Shown: positions 30,404 through 38,449 of the stretch, piece after piece
Position numbering within the stretch: position 1 is the first letter of the stretch
Layout: the number at the start of each line of letters is the position of its first letter
NCBI RefSeq assembly: GCF_001913155.1
Contig: NZ_CP018760.1
Location: 3,472,001 to 3,536,000, forward strand
Source: Maribacter hydrothermalis
GTDB taxonomy: Bacteria > Bacteroidota > Bacteroidia > Flavobacteriales > Flavobacteriaceae
Length of the DNA stretch: 64,000 nt
Direction of reading: 5' to 3'
Notes under the pieces: generated by a model
What the model was told of the DNA's origin: nothing
The model's input: the letters and a program-made list of their open reading frames with translations, nothing else
The model's database searches: none
Position numbers and translations under genes: made by a program

Positions 30404-32485
30404 ATGAAAAATGCAACTTTACTATTCTTTCTTCTAAGTAGTATGCTGTTGTCGTCACAACATGTTACTATTAGTGGTACCGTTTCTGACCACCAAGGAA
30501 ATCCTTTGCCTGGTGTAAATGTTATGGAAAAAGGAACGACCAATGGCACACAAACAGATTTTGACGGACACTATACGTTAACAGTATTAAAAGGAGCAGA
30601 ATTATCATTTTCGTATATAGGCTGTAAGAATCTAATTATGAAAGTTAGAGATAAGGTGATTATTGATGTTTCGCTTGAGGAAGACTATCAAGTGCTAGAA
30701 GAGGTCGTAGTTTCGGGGTATGGTATTCAAAAACGTCGTCATGTTACGGGCGCTGTTGCAATGGTTAACATGCAATCTCCTAAAACCAATATTAGTAGAG
30801 CATTACAAGGCAAAGTTAGTGGTGTAACTATCCGTGGCACGGGTTCTGTAGAAAATAAAAATGTAGGAACTAATGCGAAAAGACCTTTATATATAGTTGA
30901 TGGTGTTCCTATAGAGAAGCAATTTAATTTCATTGTTCAAAGCTTAAAAAGCGAAAATATTAATAGTAGAAAAGAACTTAGGGCTTCTGAAGCGCGGCGT
31001 CTGTATGGACAAGATGCCAAGTATGGATGTATTGTAATACATACGATAAAAGGAAATTATAAAATTGAAAATGACGAAAATTATGCCCACATCACTGAAA
31101 ACCAGTTTCAAAATGTAGTTTTCAACCCGTTGTCAACTTTTTCTATAGACGTAGACAAAGCAGCTTATAGTAACATTAGAAGATTCATTAACAATGGCCA
31201 GGATGTTCCTGTAGATGCAGTGAAGATTGAAGAAATGATTAATTACTTTGATTATGACTATCCCCAACCAAAAGATGATCATCCATTTTCTGTAAATACA
31301 GAAGTTGCACAAACCCCTTGGAATATAGATACTAAACTTGTGCGCATTGGTTTGCAGGGAAAAGAATATTTGAATGAAGAATTACCGGCATCTAATTTAA
31401 CTTTTTTGATAGATGTATCTGGGTCCATGTCAGATGAAAACAAATTACCACTACTTAAATCGGCCTTTAAATTATTGGTAAACCAACTTAGGGAAAAGGA
31501 TAAAGTCTCTATTGTAGTTTACGCCGGTGCGGCAGGGATGGTATTAGAACCTACATCTGGTAGTGACAAAGTAAAAATAATGAATGCTTTAAATAACTTA
31601 GAAGCAGGTGGATCCACCGCTGGAGGAGAGGGTATTGAGTTGGCTTATAAGTTGGCAGAAAAACATTTTAAAAAAAATGGGAACAATAGAGTGATATTGG
31701 CAACAGATGGTGATTTTAATGTAGGACTGTCACATGACAAAGACATGGAAAAATTAATTACGGAAAAACGAGAATCAGGTGTTTTTCTTTCGGTCCTTGG
31801 ATTTGGTATGGGGAATTATAAAGACTCTAAATTGGAAACTTTGGCAGATAAAGGAAATGGGAATCATGGTTACATAGATACCATGCAAGAAGCTCAGAAA
31901 TTATTTGGTAAGGAATTCGGTGGGACTTTATTTACAATTGCAAAAGACGTTAAACTGCAGGTAGAGTTTAATCCTGCAAAAGTAAAATCATATCGATTAA
32001 TTGGTTATGAAAATAGATTATTGGCTGATGAAGATTTTATTGATGACACCAAAGATGCAGGTGAATTAGGTAGCGGTCATACAGTAACCGCTTTGTATGA
32101 AATAATTGAAGTAGGTGCCGCATCGGAATATGATAGAGAAATACCAAACTTAAAATATTCTAACAATACTAGTAAGAATGTATTTTCTGATGAACTGTTC
32201 ACCGTAAAATTCAGATATAAAAAACCAGATGGCAATAAGAGCATAGAGATGATTCATGTACAAAATAAGAATACGCAAGAAATGTCAAAAGATTTTAAAT
32301 TCTCTGCTGCGGTGGCATTATTTGGTCAGCAATTACGAAAGTCGGCTTTTATAAATAAAACTTCTTTTAACGATGTAGTTCAACTAGCAGAAACGGGTAG
32401 GGGTGAAGATAAGAATGGATATAGAGCAGAGTTTATTAGGTTGGTTAAAAGCATCAATGAGAAATTGGTGACAGAGAATTATTAA
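30404..32485 (+). CDS. VWA-domain protein (YfbK-like) with N-terminal CarboxypepD and TonB-plug-like domains
   Basis: The 693-residue exported protein has a signal peptide (1-19). A CarboxypepD_reg-like beta-sandwich (20-95: GTVSDHQGNPLPGVNVMEKGTTNG) is followed by a plug-like region (about 96-218: VVVSGYGIQKRRHVTGA, SRALQGKVSGVTIR, PLYIVDGVPI). Then come a von Willebrand N-terminal domain (about 230-320) and a VWA domain with an intact MIDAS (DVSGSMS at 338-344, plus ATDGDFN). The C-terminal domain is DUF3520-like (about 515-690). There is no beta-barrel, so the plug is not part of a transporter. It probably acts in the periplasm as a metal-dependent adhesion or assembly factor. This fusion is known in Bacteroidetes, but its role is not. 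Confidence 0.9.
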   Translation: MKNATLLFFLLSSMLLSSQHVTISGTVSDHQGNPLPGVNVMEKGTTNGTQTDFDGHYTLTVLKGAELSFSYIGCKNLIMKVRDKVIIDVSLEEDYQVLEEVVVSGYGIQKRRHVTGAVAMVNMQSPKTNISRALQGKVSGVTIRGTGSVENKNVGTNAKRPLYIVDGVPIEKQFNFIVQSLKSENINSRKELRASEARRLYGQDAKYGCIVIHTIKGNYKIENDENYAHITENQFQNVVFNPLSTFSIDVDKAAYSNIRRFINNGQDVPVDAVKIEEMINYFDYDYPQPKDDHPFSVNTEVAQTPWNIDTKLVRIGLQGKEYLNEELPASNLTFLIDVSGSMSDENKLPLLKSAFKLLVNQLREKDKVSIVVYAGAAGMVLEPTSGSDKVKIMNALNNLEAGGSTAGGEGIELAYKLAEKHFKKNGNNRVILATDGDFNVGLSHDKDMEKLITEKRESGVFLSVLGFGMGNYKDSKLETLADKGNGNHGYIDTMQEAQKLFGKEFGGTLFTIAKDVKLQVEFNPAKVKSYRLIGYENRLLADEDFIDDTKDAGELGSGHTVTALYEIIEVGAASEYDREIPNLKYSNNTSKNVFSDELFTVKFRYKKPDGNKSIEMIHVQNKNTQEMSKDFKFSAAVALFGQQLRKSAFINKTSFNDVVQLAETGRGEDKNGYRAEFIRLVKSINEKLVTENY

Positions 32486-32573
32486 TATAGTAAAATTCCA
32501 AATAATTTTAAGGAATAGGTTATTTCAAATGTGTGTTATTTTGTATTTTCAAGGCTTATATAAAACAACACTC

Positions 32574-33920
32574 ATGAGAAAACTATTCCTTTTAATTTGC
32601 CTAATTTTTATTGGTTCACTTAATGCCCAACAAATTCTAAATGAAAAAGAAAGAGCACAGGTAATTGATGAAATTTTAGACGACCGTTTTAATAATTTAC
32701 TTCCAAATTTAATGGATGCCGCAGATTTAGATATGTGGGTGGTTATCTCAAGAGAATATAATGAAGACCCTGTTATTAGAACAATGCTACCGGCAACATG
32801 GTTAAACGCTCGCAGAAGAACTATTCTGTTATTTTATAGAGATAAGGCAAAAAACACCATAGAAAAATTGGCCGTAGCCCGCTACAATGTGGGTAAGAAT
32901 ATTGTTTCTGCTTGGGATAAGGAGAAAGAGCCAAACCAATGGGCCAGATTAATGCAATTGATTTCAGAAAGAAACCCGAAAAAAATAGGACTTAATTATT
33001 CTACAGATCACAATATCGCAGATGGCTTGGTAAAGACTGACTACGAAGAATTTATGGCTAATCTGCCTAAAAAATATACTTCAAAAGTGACCTCAGCAGA
33101 GCAACTTGCAGTTCGGTGGATAGAAACGAGAACTGAGCGAGAAATGGTTATATATGACCAACTCGTAGATTTAACCCATGATATTATAGCAGAAGCTTTT
33201 TCAGAAAAAGTTATAACCCCTGGCGTTACAACAACATCAGATGTGGTTTGGTGGATGAGACAAAAAGTAACGGATTTAGGATTGGAAACATGGTTTCACC
33301 CAACCGTGGATGTGCAACGAAGTGAAAAAGACAAAGCCAGTCAATTTTATTCGTTTGCAGACAAGCCAGATGATATGGTCATTTTACCTGGAGACTTAGT
33401 GCATTGCGATTTCGGAATTACGTACTTACGTCTAAACACCGATTGTCAAGAATTGGCATATGTTCTTAAACCGGAAGAAACCGCTGCGCCAAGTTATTTG
33501 GTAAATGGACTAAAAGATGGAAATAGAGTACAAGACTTTTTGACTAGCAATATGATTAAAGGTAGGTCCGGAAACGACATTTTAGCAAAATCTTTAAATG
33601 AGGCTAAAGCTGCCGGATTAAAACCTTCAATTTATACGCATCCACTAGGTATGTACGGACATTCTGCAGGTACCACTATTGGTATGTGGGATTCTCAAGG
33701 TGGTGTTATGCGCGATGATGGCGAAAATTATACCTTAAACCCAAATACAGTGTATGCTATAGAATTAAATACAACGGTTACTATACCTGAGTGGAACAGA
33801 GATATCCGTATTATGCTCGAAGAGGCTGGATTTTACGGTGAAGAAGGTTTTAGATATGTAAATGGTAGACAAACCGAACTTTTATTGATACCAAGGGTAA
33901 AAGAGCATCAAGGGAATTAA
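32574..33920 (+). CDS. Exported M24-family metallopeptidase (Xaa-Pro aminopeptidase-like)
   Basis: The 448-residue protein begins with a signal peptide MRKLFLLICLIFIGSLNAQ, so it acts in the periplasm. An N-terminal creatinase-like domain is followed by the pita-bread fold. Candidate metal ligands are aspartates in VHCDFGITYLRLNTDC, histidine in THPLGMYGHSAG and glutamates in AIELNTTV and MLEEAGFYGEEG. The signal peptide fixes the ATG at 32574; a longer form starting at 32529 would bury it. It lies between the VWA gene and two plug/TPR genes, with short gaps, and may be expressed with them. Confidence 0.88.
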   Translation: MRKLFLLICLIFIGSLNAQQILNEKERAQVIDEILDDRFNNLLPNLMDAADLDMWVVISREYNEDPVIRTMLPATWLNARRRTILLFYRDKAKNTIEKLAVARYNVGKNIVSAWDKEKEPNQWARLMQLISERNPKKIGLNYSTDHNIADGLVKTDYEEFMANLPKKYTSKVTSAEQLAVRWIETRTEREMVIYDQLVDLTHDIIAEAFSEKVITPGVTTTSDVVWWMRQKVTDLGLETWFHPTVDVQRSEKDKASQFYSFADKPDDMVILPGDLVHCDFGITYLRLNTDCQELAYVLKPEETAAPSYLVNGLKDGNRVQDFLTSNMIKGRSGNDILAKSLNEAKAAGLKPSIYTHPLGMYGHSAGTTIGMWDSQGGVMRDDGENYTLNPNTVYAIELNTTVTIPEWNRDIRIMLEEAGFYGEEGFRYVNGRQTELLLIPRVKEHQGN

Positions 33921-33968
33921 GACCTTTGTTTTTATCTGTATTTCAATATCTTAATTTTACTCAGTTTT

Positions 33969-36593
33969 ATGCAATGGAATTCAAATTTTCTTTTGAAAAG
34001 AATCGTAATAATTTTTGCGTGGGTTTGTTTCTTCTTTATGCCAAAAAGTTTGTTTTCCCAAACGGTATTTAAGGGGGTAATATTAGATGCGGATACGGGA
34101 CTCTCATTGCCTTATGTAAATATTGGTTTTATAGATAAAGGTCTAGGTACGGTTTCAGATGAATTCGGTGCATTTAATTTTTTGTTTGATTCCGCTAAAT
34201 TATCAGACTTAGATACCTTAAAAGTTTCTTCTATAGGCTACAAGGAATATAAATTACCATTTCCTATGGTGATTGAAAAGGACATGAAATCAACCAAAAT
34301 AGAATTGGAACCTGATGTTGTTAGCCTTAACGAGGTTGTCTTAACGAGTAGTAAGAGAAAGAAAAGAAGTAAAACCGAAAAAATGGTCGGGTATTCTTTT
34401 GTAGGGCAGTTGAAAAATGGTTCTTGGGAAGGTGATGGTGCTTTAGGGGGTGAGCTGGTAACTAAAATAAATGTCAACAAGAAAAAAAGGGAACTTAATG
34501 CATTCTATTTTTATGTGTTAAAAAATACTTCGGATAGTCTTTTGTTACGGGTAAATGTATATGATGGTACAACAATGGTTCCGGAGAAAAAGCTATCCAA
34601 CAAGAATATAACATATACCCTTAAAACAAAAATAGGGAAGGTAGGTATAGATTTAACTCCATTTAATATTACTGTCGAAAATGATTTTAGTATCGGTATA
34701 GAGTTATTAAAAGTGTACGGAGATAAAATTGACCTTGTGGTTGCTGGTGATGATACGCCTGGGGTCTCGTATCGTAGATATATTAGTCAAGGAGAATGGA
34801 AACGATACTCAAAAGATGCTTTGACCTATTTTGTTAGTACAACCATGCTAGAGGAAGAGGATGAAGAAGATGTTGTGTTGCAAGATGAAAAACTAATAAC
34901 CAATTATACCAATGAACAGCTATTGCAAAGCATGGGTAGAAATGTTGGGGTGGTAAGTGGCTTTGTATTTAAGGATGGCGAAAGGGTAAAAGGAGCTCAA
35001 GTTCAAAATTTATTTTCCAAAGAGGTTACTACAACCGATGAAAATGGGAGATATACCCTAAAAGCCAAGGTGAAAGATGAATTAAAATTTTCATATGCCA
35101 CACTGCAAAGCGAACTTAGAACAGTACTGGAAACCACTTTTGCCATAAATGTAGCTTTAGAGGAACAAGTAACCGAGCTTGAGGAAGTTACAGTAACTGC
35201 TTTAGGAAAGAAAAAAAGAACACAGGAAGAATTGTATAGAGATTTTGCTGATGATAAAGAAATTATAAAAACATCTTTTGGTATTTACAGTAAGGAAACT
35301 TCGGGTTATTCAATGAGTATAATAGATGAGTCAGAATTTGGGAGTACAGCTTCTTCGTTAGGAAATTTATTACGGGGTAAGGTTCCTGGTTTAAGTATGC
35401 TATCCACCGATAAACTTGATGGTTCAACACAAATATTTTTAAGACAGCAAGGTACCAACAATCCTATTCCTGCTGCTTTTGAGGTAGATGGACTATTGGT
35501 CTCAGGTTTTCCTACTTTTCTTGATGTAGCTCAAATAAAACGTATTGCAGTACTATCTGGGTTGGCATCTGTCGCTAAATATGGTACAATGGGTGCTGGT
35601 GGTGTTATCATTATTAATACAAAAGTTGCTAATTTTTCATCTTCGACTTCTGGTTCAACTAAAAAAATGAAGGTGTTTACCCAAGAAATGAACGAAAAGG
35701 TAATTTCAGAAGAGGAAGCCCGTCGAAATTGGCCCGATTTTTTGCAAGAACTTTATGTAAGCGAAAACCTTTTAAAAGCACAAGAGATTTATAATTCTTA
35801 TGAACCCAAATTTGGCACAAATCCTAATTTTAATATTGACGCTACAAATTACTTTCTCGAATTTTGGGGTAGTGAAGCTTTTACATCGGAATTGGTTTCT
35901 AAGAACTTAAGCCGATTTGGGAATAATATCAGTTATTTAAAAGCCTTGGCTTTTGTGTTAGATAAGAATAAAAAGTATGACCAATCTGTAGATTTATACA
36001 AACAAATTTTACTGCTGAAATCTAATTCTGTCGAGTCATATAGAGATTTGGCAAATGCATACGTTAATAACAATCAAAAGGAAAGAGGAGAAAACATTTA
36101 TGCCAGGTATTTCAACTTAACTAAAGAAGGCTTTTTTTCTAAGCAACCCGATGCTTTGCAAAATGTTATTAATACAGAAGTGAAAACCTTATTAGATATT
36201 TCAGAAGATAAATTAGATAGTTCAATATCAAGTTTTATTACTAAAGAGGATACAAAAACAAGAATTGTGTTAGAATGGAACGATGATGATGCAGAATTAA
36301 ATTTTCAGTTTGTATCGCCTGATGATTTTTTAAGTAGTTGGTCAAATAATATGGATGGGGAATTAAGCGAGAGCTTGTTATCTAAAGGGTATACTAGTAA
36401 GGATTTTTTTATATATGGGGACCAAAGTAATTGGCGGATTAATGCGGATTATAAAGGAAATAAAACTGGTTTAGCTACCTATTTAAAGATTACAATTAGT
36501 ACAGATTACGGCACTGAAAATCAAAAAGACATGATTAAAATCTTTAGAATGGATGTTAAGAATGTAAATAGAAACCTTATACAGGTTCCTTAG
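33969..36593 (+). CDS. Exported barrel-less CarboxypepD / TonB-plug / TPR / DUF2135-like protein (paralogue A)
   Basis: The 874-residue protein has a signal peptide (about 1-31), CarboxypepD domain 1 (32-125) and a beta-rich domain (about 135-295). CarboxypepD domain 2 (about 325-400) is followed by a plug-like segment (about 445-552: SLGNLLRGKVPGLSM, PAAFEVDGLLV, IKRIAVLSGLASVAKYG, GAGGVIIINT). TPR-like helices (about 650-720) and a C-terminal DUF2135-like domain (about 760-874: RIVLEWNDDDAELNFQFVSP, ATYLKITISTDYGTENQK) complete it. No beta-barrel is present, so it cannot be a transporter on its own. The DUF2135-TPR end resembles the C-terminus of VIT/VWA proteins. The next gene encodes a shorter paralogue. 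The role is unknown; a structural or binding role at the outer membrane is inferred. Confidence 0.85.
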   Translation: MQWNSNFLLKRIVIIFAWVCFFFMPKSLFSQTVFKGVILDADTGLSLPYVNIGFIDKGLGTVSDEFGAFNFLFDSAKLSDLDTLKVSSIGYKEYKLPFPMVIEKDMKSTKIELEPDVVSLNEVVLTSSKRKKRSKTEKMVGYSFVGQLKNGSWEGDGALGGELVTKINVNKKKRELNAFYFYVLKNTSDSLLLRVNVYDGTTMVPEKKLSNKNITYTLKTKIGKVGIDLTPFNITVENDFSIGIELLKVYGDKIDLVVAGDDTPGVSYRRYISQGEWKRYSKDALTYFVSTTMLEEEDEEDVVLQDEKLITNYTNEQLLQSMGRNVGVVSGFVFKDGERVKGAQVQNLFSKEVTTTDENGRYTLKAKVKDELKFSYATLQSELRTVLETTFAINVALEEQVTELEEVTVTALGKKKRTQEELYRDFADDKEIIKTSFGIYSKETSGYSMSIIDESEFGSTASSLGNLLRGKVPGLSMLSTDKLDGSTQIFLRQQGTNNPIPAAFEVDGLLVSGFPTFLDVAQIKRIAVLSGLASVAKYGTMGAGGVIIINTKVANFSSSTSGSTKKMKVFTQEMNEKVISEEEARRNWPDFLQELYVSENLLKAQEIYNSYEPKFGTNPNFNIDATNYFLEFWGSEAFTSELVSKNLSRFGNNISYLKALAFVLDKNKKYDQSVDLYKQILLLKSNSVESYRDLANAYVNNNQKERGENIYARYFNLTKEGFFSKQPDALQNVINTEVKTLLDISEDKLDSSISSFITKEDTKTRIVLEWNDDDAELNFQFVSPDDFLSSWSNNMDGELSESLLSKGYTSKDFFIYGDQSNWRINADYKGNKTGLATYLKITISTDYGTENQKDMIKIFRMDVKNVNRNLIQVP

Positions 36594-36688
36594 TAAAACT
36601 TATATTTTTTATTATTTTAACTATTAAAGCTTTTCCTAAAGCATTACATTATTTCGTATATTTAGTTAACTGTTAACACTTTAGGTAT

Positions 36689-38449
36689 ATGAAAAACTTA
36701 TCTTTATTTTTTTTCTACAGTCTTTTAATAAATATTGGTTTCGGACAAAACGCCAAAGAAGTTTTTGGTGTAATCTCAGATGATTATGGGCCATTAGAAA
36801 ATGTTAAGGTATTAGTTATTGGTAAAGATGCTTTAACAACTTCTGATATAAATGGAAAATATAAAATTAATGTCCGGGAAGGTGAAATTTTAGGTTTTAA
36901 TATTTTGGGTAAGATTCCTGTAGAAATTAAAGTTGAAGACGTTACCCGTATCCTTAATATAACTATGTACGATAAGGTTGAAAAATTGGTTGAGGTTACA
37001 GTCAAAACTAACCGCTTTAAAAGTCAGGAACAGCGTGCTTTGGAATATGAAAATAATCCGAATATTATAAAAAGCGCCTTTGGTTTCTTGGATAAGGAAA
37101 CTACAGGGTATTCATTAGGTATTTTAAACGAGAAGGATATTGGATCGCAGTTCTTGGATATTGGAACTCTTTTAAACGGAAAATTCGCTGGGGTTATGGC
37201 TCATTGTAATCGGGAGACAGGTTTTATAGAGATTACCGTAAGACAGAATAATACAAGTTATGGTGGAGGTTCTCAGGCAATTTTTGATGTAGATGGTATA
37301 CGTATGGATATGTTGCCCTGTTACCTCATAGATCCCTTAAATATTAAAAGAATCGCTATTATTAGAGGTAAAGGAGGAACGGGGATTTATGGAAGTAATG
37401 CCATGGGCGGTGTTGTTGTAATTAACACCAATTCAGGTACATTTACCCCATTAAAGGAGGATAATTACCAAAAAGCAAAGGCCGAAAGAGAAAAGCATAA
37501 TCTTTATAATGGAGAAGCACTATCAATTTCCGATATAGTGTCAGTTCCTATATACATGGAAAGCTATAAGCGTGTAAATTCGGAAGATGAAGCTATTGAC
37601 GTGTATTACTCAAATCTTGAAAGGTATAATGGATCATTTTATTTTTTATTGGATTCGTACAACTATTTTATTAAGAATTGGAATAACGACAAATTCAATG
37701 AGGCGATCATATCCGATAATTGGAGGGTATTTGAGAATAATCCTATCGCTTTAAAATCGTTGGCATATATCTACGAGGCCAATGGTAATTTTGCAAAAGC
37801 GCAAAATATGTATAAAGAGATCTTTATTTTAAGACCGGAATATGCTCAATCCTATTTTAATTTAGCTAAAAGTTATGTGGACAACAACGAATTTTCTAGG
37901 GCGGCAACATTGTTTACACGTTATGACCATTTAAAGGAAGTAGGTTTTTTGAATGATGCTAAAGGAAACTTTACCGCCTTGATGGATATTGAATTCGAAA
38001 ATCTACTTCGGTTAAAAGGAACTTCATTTTTGTCGGATACGGATCGTAAAATATTTGTTTCTAACAATAGTTTTGATGGTACCCGTTTAGTTTTCGAGTG
38101 GGCCGATAGCGAGGCTGAGTTTGAGCTTCAATATGTAAACCCTGAAAATCGCTTTTTTAGCTGGAATCATACCTTAAAAAGTAATACTGAACGTATTCAG
38201 GATGAAAAAATGATTGGGTACACCACCGAAGCTTACGAATTGGGTAAAAACTACAACGGTACGTGGCAGGTTAATATTAAATATTTGGGCAATAAAAGTT
38301 TAACACCAACTTATTTAAAGGCTACGGTGTATCGTGATTTTGGAACGTCAGCACAACGTAAAGAGATTAAGGTATTTAAACTAAGTTTAAAAAATGTAAA
38401 TCAAAAGTTGTTTACTGTATCCAATACAGTAGGTGTAGCTTTAAACTAA
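36689..38449 (+). CDS. Exported barrel-less CarboxypepD / TonB-plug / TPR / DUF2135-like protein (paralogue B)
   Basis: The 586-residue paralogue of the preceding gene lacks that protein's first CarboxypepD and beta-rich domains. Its layout is signal peptide 1-19, CarboxypepD 20-95, and plug-like 135-250 (IGTLLNGKFAGVMAHC, SQAIFDVDGIRM, IKRIAIIRGKGGTGIYGS, MGGVVVINT). TPR-like helices follow (about 350-420: ALKSLAYIYEANGNFAKAQNMYKEI), then a DUF2135-like C-terminus (460-570: RLVFEWADSEAEFELQYVNP, PTYLKATVYRDFGTSAQRKE). Shared landmarks with paralogue A include KETTGYS/KETSGYS before the plug. Its stop overlaps the convergent acyl-CoA carboxylase gene by 4 bases. A GTTAAC-T-GTTAAC palindrome precedes the gene. 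Confidence 0.85.
   Translation: MKNLSLFFFYSLLINIGFGQNAKEVFGVISDDYGPLENVKVLVIGKDALTTSDINGKYKINVREGEILGFNILGKIPVEIKVEDVTRILNITMYDKVEKLVEVTVKTNRFKSQEQRALEYENNPNIIKSAFGFLDKETTGYSLGILNEKDIGSQFLDIGTLLNGKFAGVMAHCNRETGFIEITVRQNNTSYGGGSQAIFDVDGIRMDMLPCYLIDPLNIKRIAIIRGKGGTGIYGSNAMGGVVVINTNSGTFTPLKEDNYQKAKAEREKHNLYNGEALSISDIVSVPIYMESYKRVNSEDEAIDVYYSNLERYNGSFYFLLDSYNYFIKNWNNDKFNEAIISDNWRVFENNPIALKSLAYIYEANGNFAKAQNMYKEIFILRPEYAQSYFNLAKSYVDNNEFSRAATLFTRYDHLKEVGFLNDAKGNFTALMDIEFENLLRLKGTSFLSDTDRKIFVSNNSFDGTRLVFEWADSEAEFELQYVNPENRFFSWNHTLKSNTERIQDEKMIGYTTEAYELGKNYNGTWQVNIKYLGNKSLTPTYLKATVYRDFGTSAQRKEIKVFKLSLKNVNQKLFTVSNTVGVALN

Follow-up and report, generated by a model that had tools for sequence, protein, structure and literature searches.

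Two neighbouring genes encode plug domains without a barrel

A 64,000-nucleotide stretch of the Maribacter hydrothermalis genome (contig NZ_CP018760.1, positions 3,472,001 to 3,536,000; hereafter the window) carries two neighbouring genes, A and B, whose products are likely exported, in agreement with the periplasmic or surface system suggested by the original prediction. Each combines a CarboxypepD (CPD) domain of the SusC-type NTE kind, a TonB-box-like motif and a TonB-plug, with matching folds and in the order known from SusC/RagA-type transporters (PF13715 NTE, TonB box, PF07715 plug, barrel), but where those transporters continue into the barrel, A and B carry TPR helices and a DUF2135-like half (Table 1). 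Plugs are known to gate their own barrels, and the claim that two adjacent genes here encode plugs with no barrel is borne out by domain mapping: both proteins belong to a Bacteroidota family with a barrel-less NTE-plug-TPR-DUF2135 architecture.

Two marks of SusC-type proteins, the NTE fold and the plug domain, are present in A and B and match solved SusC structures, and in each protein the plug fold is real and the plug complete. No 22-strand barrel was found in either protein; about 333 and 351 residues follow the plug, and the models place the TPR helices and the beta sandwich there. The SusC model TIGR04056 gives A and B 117.6 and 68.4 bits, far below its cut-off of 368.25, and the lists of structural matches consist mostly of TPR and jelly-roll entries, which may leave another family unlisted. 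Loss of the barrel in A and B only, from homologues that all retain one, is ruled out, as just 301–362 residues follow the plug in 81 of 81 mapped proteins with plug and tail, leaving no room for a barrel. An artefact of sequencing or a broken SusC gene is likewise excluded for A by its low ratio of non-synonymous to synonymous substitutions (dN/dS) and by nearly full-length relatives at 61–89% identity in eight genomes of the same genus (one with an internal stop). Internal stops in some same-genus copies (G400, G403, G410, G390) suggest local decay of the tandem pair. A scan of genome contigs with B returned zero loci.

Table 1. Genes A and B, their domains and two upstream genes in the window (residue numbers refer to the encoded protein; pLDDT, predicted local distance difference test).
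Feature	Position	Strand	Description
Gene A	33969..36593	+	874 aa; signal peptide, CarboxypepD, lectin-like jelly roll, CarboxypepD (NTE), TonB-box-like motif, plug, TPR, DUF2135-like tail
A, first CarboxypepD domain	34059..34352	+	residues 31-128; Pfam match 35-124
A, lectin-like jelly roll	34362..34850	+	residues 132-294
A, second CarboxypepD / SusC-type NTE	34941..35177	+	residues 325-403
A, TonB-box-like motif LEEVTV	35178..35195	+	residues 404-409; within a stretch of pLDDT <50
A, TonB-plug	35262..35624	+	residues 432-552
A, TPR helices	35712..36194	+	residues 582-742
A, DUF2135-like beta sandwich	36246..36590	+	residues 760-874; without D-x-D-L and GxGPE motifs
Gene B	36689..38449	+	586 aa; signal peptide, CarboxypepD (NTE), TonB-box-like motif, plug, TPR, DUF2135-like tail
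B, NTE domain	36749..36985	+	residues 21-99
B, TonB-box-like motif LVEVTV	36986..37003	+	residues 100-105; pLDDT <50
B, TonB-plug fold	37088..37435	+	residues 134-249
B, TPR helices	37541..38008	+	residues 285-440
B, DUF2135-like sandwich	38066..38422	+	residues 460-578; best-conserved domain of the B family alignment
M24-type peptidase	32529..33920	+	signal-peptide-like start by eye; recurrent upstream neighbour of family genes
CarboxypepD-plug-VWA-YfbK_C protein	30404..32485	+	separate barrel-less plug family

The family and its architectures

The TPR-DUF2135 tail of A and B aligns with the VIT-VWA-DUF2135 family over about 300 residues and is, judged from this alignment, homologous to the C-terminal half of the VIT/VWA proteins of Bacteroidota, of which the original prediction had rightly considered it typical. 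A and B differ from these proteins in that neither a VIT nor a VWA domain was detected in them and both DUF2135 motifs (D-x-D-L and GxGPE) are missing. Pfam DUF2135 scored above its cut-off in five of seven relatives scanned, namely the five with VIT, while A and B fall below it.

Sequence searches at E 0.001, with about 8,000 candidates scored in each, returned 41 proteins for A, the weak end of this list including barrel-bearing transporters, and 427 for B (120 of them listed). Among 149 genomes of the host's taxonomic family, the B alignment matched 40 (E 1e-40) and the tail alone 47 (E 1e-12). At phylum level, 43 of 247 genomes passed 1e-8 with the tail and 26 had a match below 1e-50, the weak matches mostly covering the TPR part only. 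Within the genus, the family is present in 30 of 36 genomes (26 of the 30 good ones). From 92 fetched loci, which take in part of the 149-genome tail matches, profiles built from a few family members yielded 109 tail-bearing open reading frames (ORFs), window included, of which seven were cut by contig or stretch ends and dropped. The B-alignment search uses plug-bearing sequences and so favours plug-bearing matches, while the tail searches need no plug.

The 102 uncut proteins comprise 39 with both VWA and plug, 20 VIT-VWA forms without a plug, 42 with a plug and no VWA, and one with none of these domains detected; VIT was found in 35. The commonest architectures ahead of the tail are CPD-plug (33), VIT-VWA (15), VWA-CPD-plug (15) and VIT-VWA-CPD-plug (14), followed by CPD1-lectin-VWA-CPD-plug (7), CPD1-CPD-plug (7), VIT-VWA-CPD (4) and VWA-plug (2), with single cases of VIT-VWA-plug, VIT-VWA-TonB_C, A itself, plug only and none. 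Seven representatives were annotated with Pfam: all five VIT forms show VIT and DUF2135, all five plug forms show the plug, and L124 shows TonB_C; VWA was recognised by Pfam only in L053, L124 and L086 and rests on our own profile in L061, L090, L125 and L128. In the VIT-VWA protein L124 (L124:9741-12980), a TonB C-terminal domain occupies the linker where relatives carry the plug. The same arrangement, VIT-VWA-TPR-DUF2135 with a TonB C-terminal domain in the plug's position, is seen in P0035.

Plug capture and the loss of VIT and VWA

The original prediction also suggested that the plug had taken the place of the VWA part. We reject this: VWA and plug stand together in 39 proteins, many of which share a syntenic site with plug-only forms, and intermediates join VIT, VWA, plug and DUF2135 in one chain. 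In a tree of the tail, all 35 VIT members fall in one clade of 38 (support 84) together with L132, L133 and L134; the 15 members belonging to other families of the phylum are all part of this clade, and the VWA-plug and remaining plug-only members lie outside it. Rooted within the VIT clade, the tree supports, though it does not prove, an ancestral VIT-VWA protein that captured the plug and then lost first VIT and later VWA. Independently of the tree, resemblance to SusC plugs declines in the same sequence, which is what a capture preceding the losses would predict, the median score against a SusC-plug profile built from this genome being 150.7 bits for VIT-VWA-CPD-plug (n=14), 85.5 for VWA-CPD-plug (n=15) and 36.6 for CPD-plug proteins (n=33). 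Scores of plug-only forms range from 4.1 to 155, the highest being that of L132, inside the VIT clade. The tail tree, plug divergence and synteny fit the entry of a SusC N-terminus (NTE, TonB-box region and plug) into the linker of a VIT-VWA-TPR-DUF2135 protein. Linker content switches back and forth inside the VIT clade, so that capture may have happened more than once. The GxGPE motif of DUF2135 occurs in 34 of the 35 VIT members versus 2 of the 67 others (L133 and L134, both inside the VIT clade), which hints at joint action of VIT and DUF2135.

In A, a lectin-like domain occupies the place that VWA holds in some close relatives. A free-standing CPD-lectin-CPD gene adjoins plug-only genes (L221-L225, L227) in 6 of 20 fetched same-genus loci, so that A looks like a fusion of neighbours, with the free-standing gene as its probable donor or product. 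Compared with its relative at 89% identity (L197), the lectin-like part of A (window positions 34353-34853) is identical in protein and has a DNA dS of 0.11, while the second CPD part has a dS of 1.19, a pattern that looks like a recombination mosaic.

Conservation of the plug

The plug of A is under purifying selection, with dN/dS values of 0.059, 0.071 and 0.113 against relatives of 89, 79 and 75% identity. This bears on whether the plug could be no more than a structural spacer, a remnant of gene fusion that docks to nothing. Linker content does vary among close VIT-VWA relatives (L112, L113, L114, L116), and some linkers hold only plug-like fragments; however, in the closest pair the plug of A is selected as strongly as its TPR part (0.059 versus 0.066), and 42 of 102 members have kept a plug but have no VWA; we regard a mere spacer as unlikely.

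Across the B family, plug residues R185, D202, G203, Y234 and G241 are invariant, and G235 and G240 are conserved at 90% or more. This conservation would speak for a plug that acts in trans, entering SusC-type barrels whose own plug is displaced and thereby sealing or inhibiting them. The available portion of PMC7782687 reports SusC plugs absent from closed complexes in vitro, an absence its authors consider likely non-physiological. Invariant residues may, however, serve the fold only, plug-only forms have drifted far from SusC (the median of 36.6 bits), and a bulky TPR half is attached to the plug; action in trans is accordingly improbable in our estimation.

Elsewhere in the same genome, an ORF near 2.236 Mb (L171, 151 aa) begins like a lipoprotein (SSC) and contains little beyond a plug-like domain, and near 1.266 Mb a SusC-type gene (L143:3198-6401) is cut by an in-frame stop into ORFs of 253 aa (NTE-plug) and 813 aa, through either natural decay or a sequencing error.

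A shared chromosomal site

VIT-VWA-plug, VWA-plug and plug-only forms are all found at one site, between M24 peptidase and acyl-CoA carboxylase genes, in different genera. The recurrent gene order is CPBP, menE-like, an optional YfbK-plug gene, M24, the family gene, carboxylase, oxidoreductase and ABC-F. Each of the 109 ORFs was assigned to this locus if its fetched stretch held an M24 gene upstream on the same strand or a gene for the carboxylase, as judged by blastp against the genes of the window with an identity of 30% or more. This locus was found for 17/33 CPD-plug genes, 15/16 VWA-CPD-plug genes (the sixteenth, L071, is cut), 3/14 VIT-VWA-CPD-plug genes (in a fourth, L088, the order of menE and M24 differs), 2/4 plug-only genes, 1/2 VWA-plug genes and A itself (1/1), and for 0/4 VIT-VWA-CPD genes. 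Within the genus, 29 other genomes had matches; in all 20 of those fetched, as in the window, the family lies between M24 and carboxylase. The gene directly 3' of M24 in these 20 loci is A-type in 10 (as in the window), a VWA form in five, plug-only in four and a separate CPD-lectin ORF in one.

The M24 protein has no solved relative by sequence at E <=0.01. By eye, its five metal ligands seem to be present. Promoter- and terminator-like counts do not exceed those of shuffled sequences and so lend no support to co-transcription of M24, A and B. The CPD-plug-VWA-YfbK_C gene occurs at the same locus in 9 of 93 loci overall and in 10 of 20 same-genus loci; its product resembles A and B in its barrel-less CPD-plug, but has the plug in front of VWA and YfbK_C and no TPR-DUF2135 tail.

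A candidate TonB box

The motif of A aligns with the VDEVVV stretch in 5t3r, a SusC homologue, and the match of sequence and position to the SusC box makes the A and B motifs candidate TonB boxes. According to the available portion of PMC7782687, VDEVVV is the TonB box mutated in BT1763; it lies apart from the NTE body, and its deletion or mutation gives a growth defect on levan equal to that of SusD loss. In an alignment of 78 B relatives, L100 and V103 never vary, V105 is conserved at 94%, and mean entropy is 0.69 at box positions 100-105 versus 1.79 for the rest of the linker.

A tight motif, chosen after seeing the linkers, occurs in 14/14 VIT-VWA-CPD-plug, 19/33 CPD-plug, 7/15 VWA-CPD-plug and 5/15 plug-less VIT-VWA linkers, the last against a shuffle mean of 0.10 and a maximum of 1 in 300. 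A loose motif was also found in 5/15 plug-less VIT-VWA linkers, not above shuffles (maximum 5). A stricter motif, derived solely from 11 of this genome's SusC boxes, is present in 11/14 VIT-VWA-CPD-plug, 11/15 VWA-CPD-plug and 8/33 CPD-plug linkers (shuffle maximum 1), and in 1/15 plug-less VIT-VWA linkers. The linker of VIT-VWA-TPR-DUF2135 proteins might be a recurrent Ton-docking slot within a Ton-driven periplasmic machine, holding a plug in some lineages and in others the TonB box by itself or the C-terminal domain of TonB; this is rather unlikely, and is weakened by the single plug-less linker with the SusC-derived motif, compared with five for the post hoc one.

A related proposal is a soluble machine powered by Ton, in which TonB would bind the box and pull on the barrel-free plug so that motor force remodels a TPR-bound client. 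The transporter order of NTE, TonB-box region and plug, the conserved box in the low-confidence linker of B and the BT1763 phenotype (PMC7782687, available portion) speak for it, as do proposals by other authors that vWA proteins are coupled to a motor and that PorE, a CP-domain protein, is linked to TonB/TolA (available portion of PMC12204202). However, the motif is present in BamP-like proteins and absent from many members, and no outer-membrane anchor was seen, so that the force would have nothing to pull against. We consider such a machine quite doubtful.

A possible periplasmic adaptor, and its relation to known systems

Given about an even chance, our preferred interpretation is that A and B are exported adaptors, joining a transporter-derived NTE-box-plug docking block to a client-binding TPR-DUF2135 half. 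By a simple rule, the N-terminus is hydrophobic in all 33 CPD-plug members and carries a lipobox in none; these N-termini, with no anchor seen, suggest that A and B are probably soluble proteins of the periplasm. A SusC-type N-terminal block (NTE, TonB-box region and plug) would have entered a VIT-VWA-TPR-DUF2135 protein in the linker that joins VWA to TPR, and would have outlasted first VIT and then VWA. Docking could occur through the exposed TonB-box-like strand, binding the C-terminal domain of TonB, through the plug surface, binding an outer-membrane partner, or both, while the TPR and DUF2135-like half would hold a client, the best candidate being the co-located M24 peptidase.

Several observations weigh against the adaptor. 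The midpoint root of the tail tree falls among long plug-only branches, so that the order of events depends on rooting with the VIT-VWA clade. The link to the peptidase is one of co-location, with a terminator-like site at 33909-33928 of a kind no more frequent than chance predicts, and neither CPD1-type relatives (0/14) nor plug-less VIT-VWA proteins (0/15) lie at the M24/carboxylase locus. In the B family (78 relatives), the plug is conserved no better than the NTE (entropy 1.78 versus 1.84; DUF2135-like domain 1.00). The tight motif is absent from 14/33 and the SusC-derived motif from 25/33 CPD-plug members, and the box-and-linker stretch of A (31 codons) evolves faster than the plug, with dN/dS of 0.174 and 0.109 in two of three pairs, the third not being computable. 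A similar motif also follows the first CPD of A, and two adjacent plug-less BamP-like ORFs of the same genome (L007:1063-2569, near 0.878 Mb) carry LDEVTV and LDEVVI after CarboxypepD, so that the motif may be a general trailer of this domain.

These ORFs also bear on a role as a BAM-associated factor resembling BamP of the Flavobacterium johnsoniae BAM complex, in which the CPD domain and the following loop would bind BamA or BamD. A CarboxypepD-type domain is common to BamP and to A and B, but BamP has neither plug nor TPR half, and membership of the BamP family is ruled out by NF053692 scores of 37.4 and 21.5 bits against a cut-off of 230; a BamP-like role seems to us decidedly improbable. 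Force-transducing vWA proteins, as described in the available portion of PMC12204202, have a vWA fold behind an N-terminal transmembrane helix with an SHLS motif; A and B differ in having no VWA, SHLS itself not having been looked for. Proteins of the A/B type are not described in the available portions of PMC12611786 (BamP), PMC12204202 (vWA transducers, CP domain), PMC7782687 (NTE, TonB box, plug ejection) or PMC12419801, and no description of barrel-less plug-TPR-DUF2135 proteins was found in a literature search whose reach excluded most subscription papers.

Implications for the family

Oke reportedly studied a plug without its barrel in 2004. In the family of A and B, a gate persists without any barrel in conserved proteins, which opens the question of TonB action on soluble proteins to experiment, and a natural series of VIT-VWA-plug, VWA-plug and plug-only forms is found at one chromosomal site. 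Three little-known parts, the bacterial VIT/VWA proteins, DUF2135 and barrel-less plugs, are thereby joined as a single evolutionary unit that often adjoins a gene for a peptidase.
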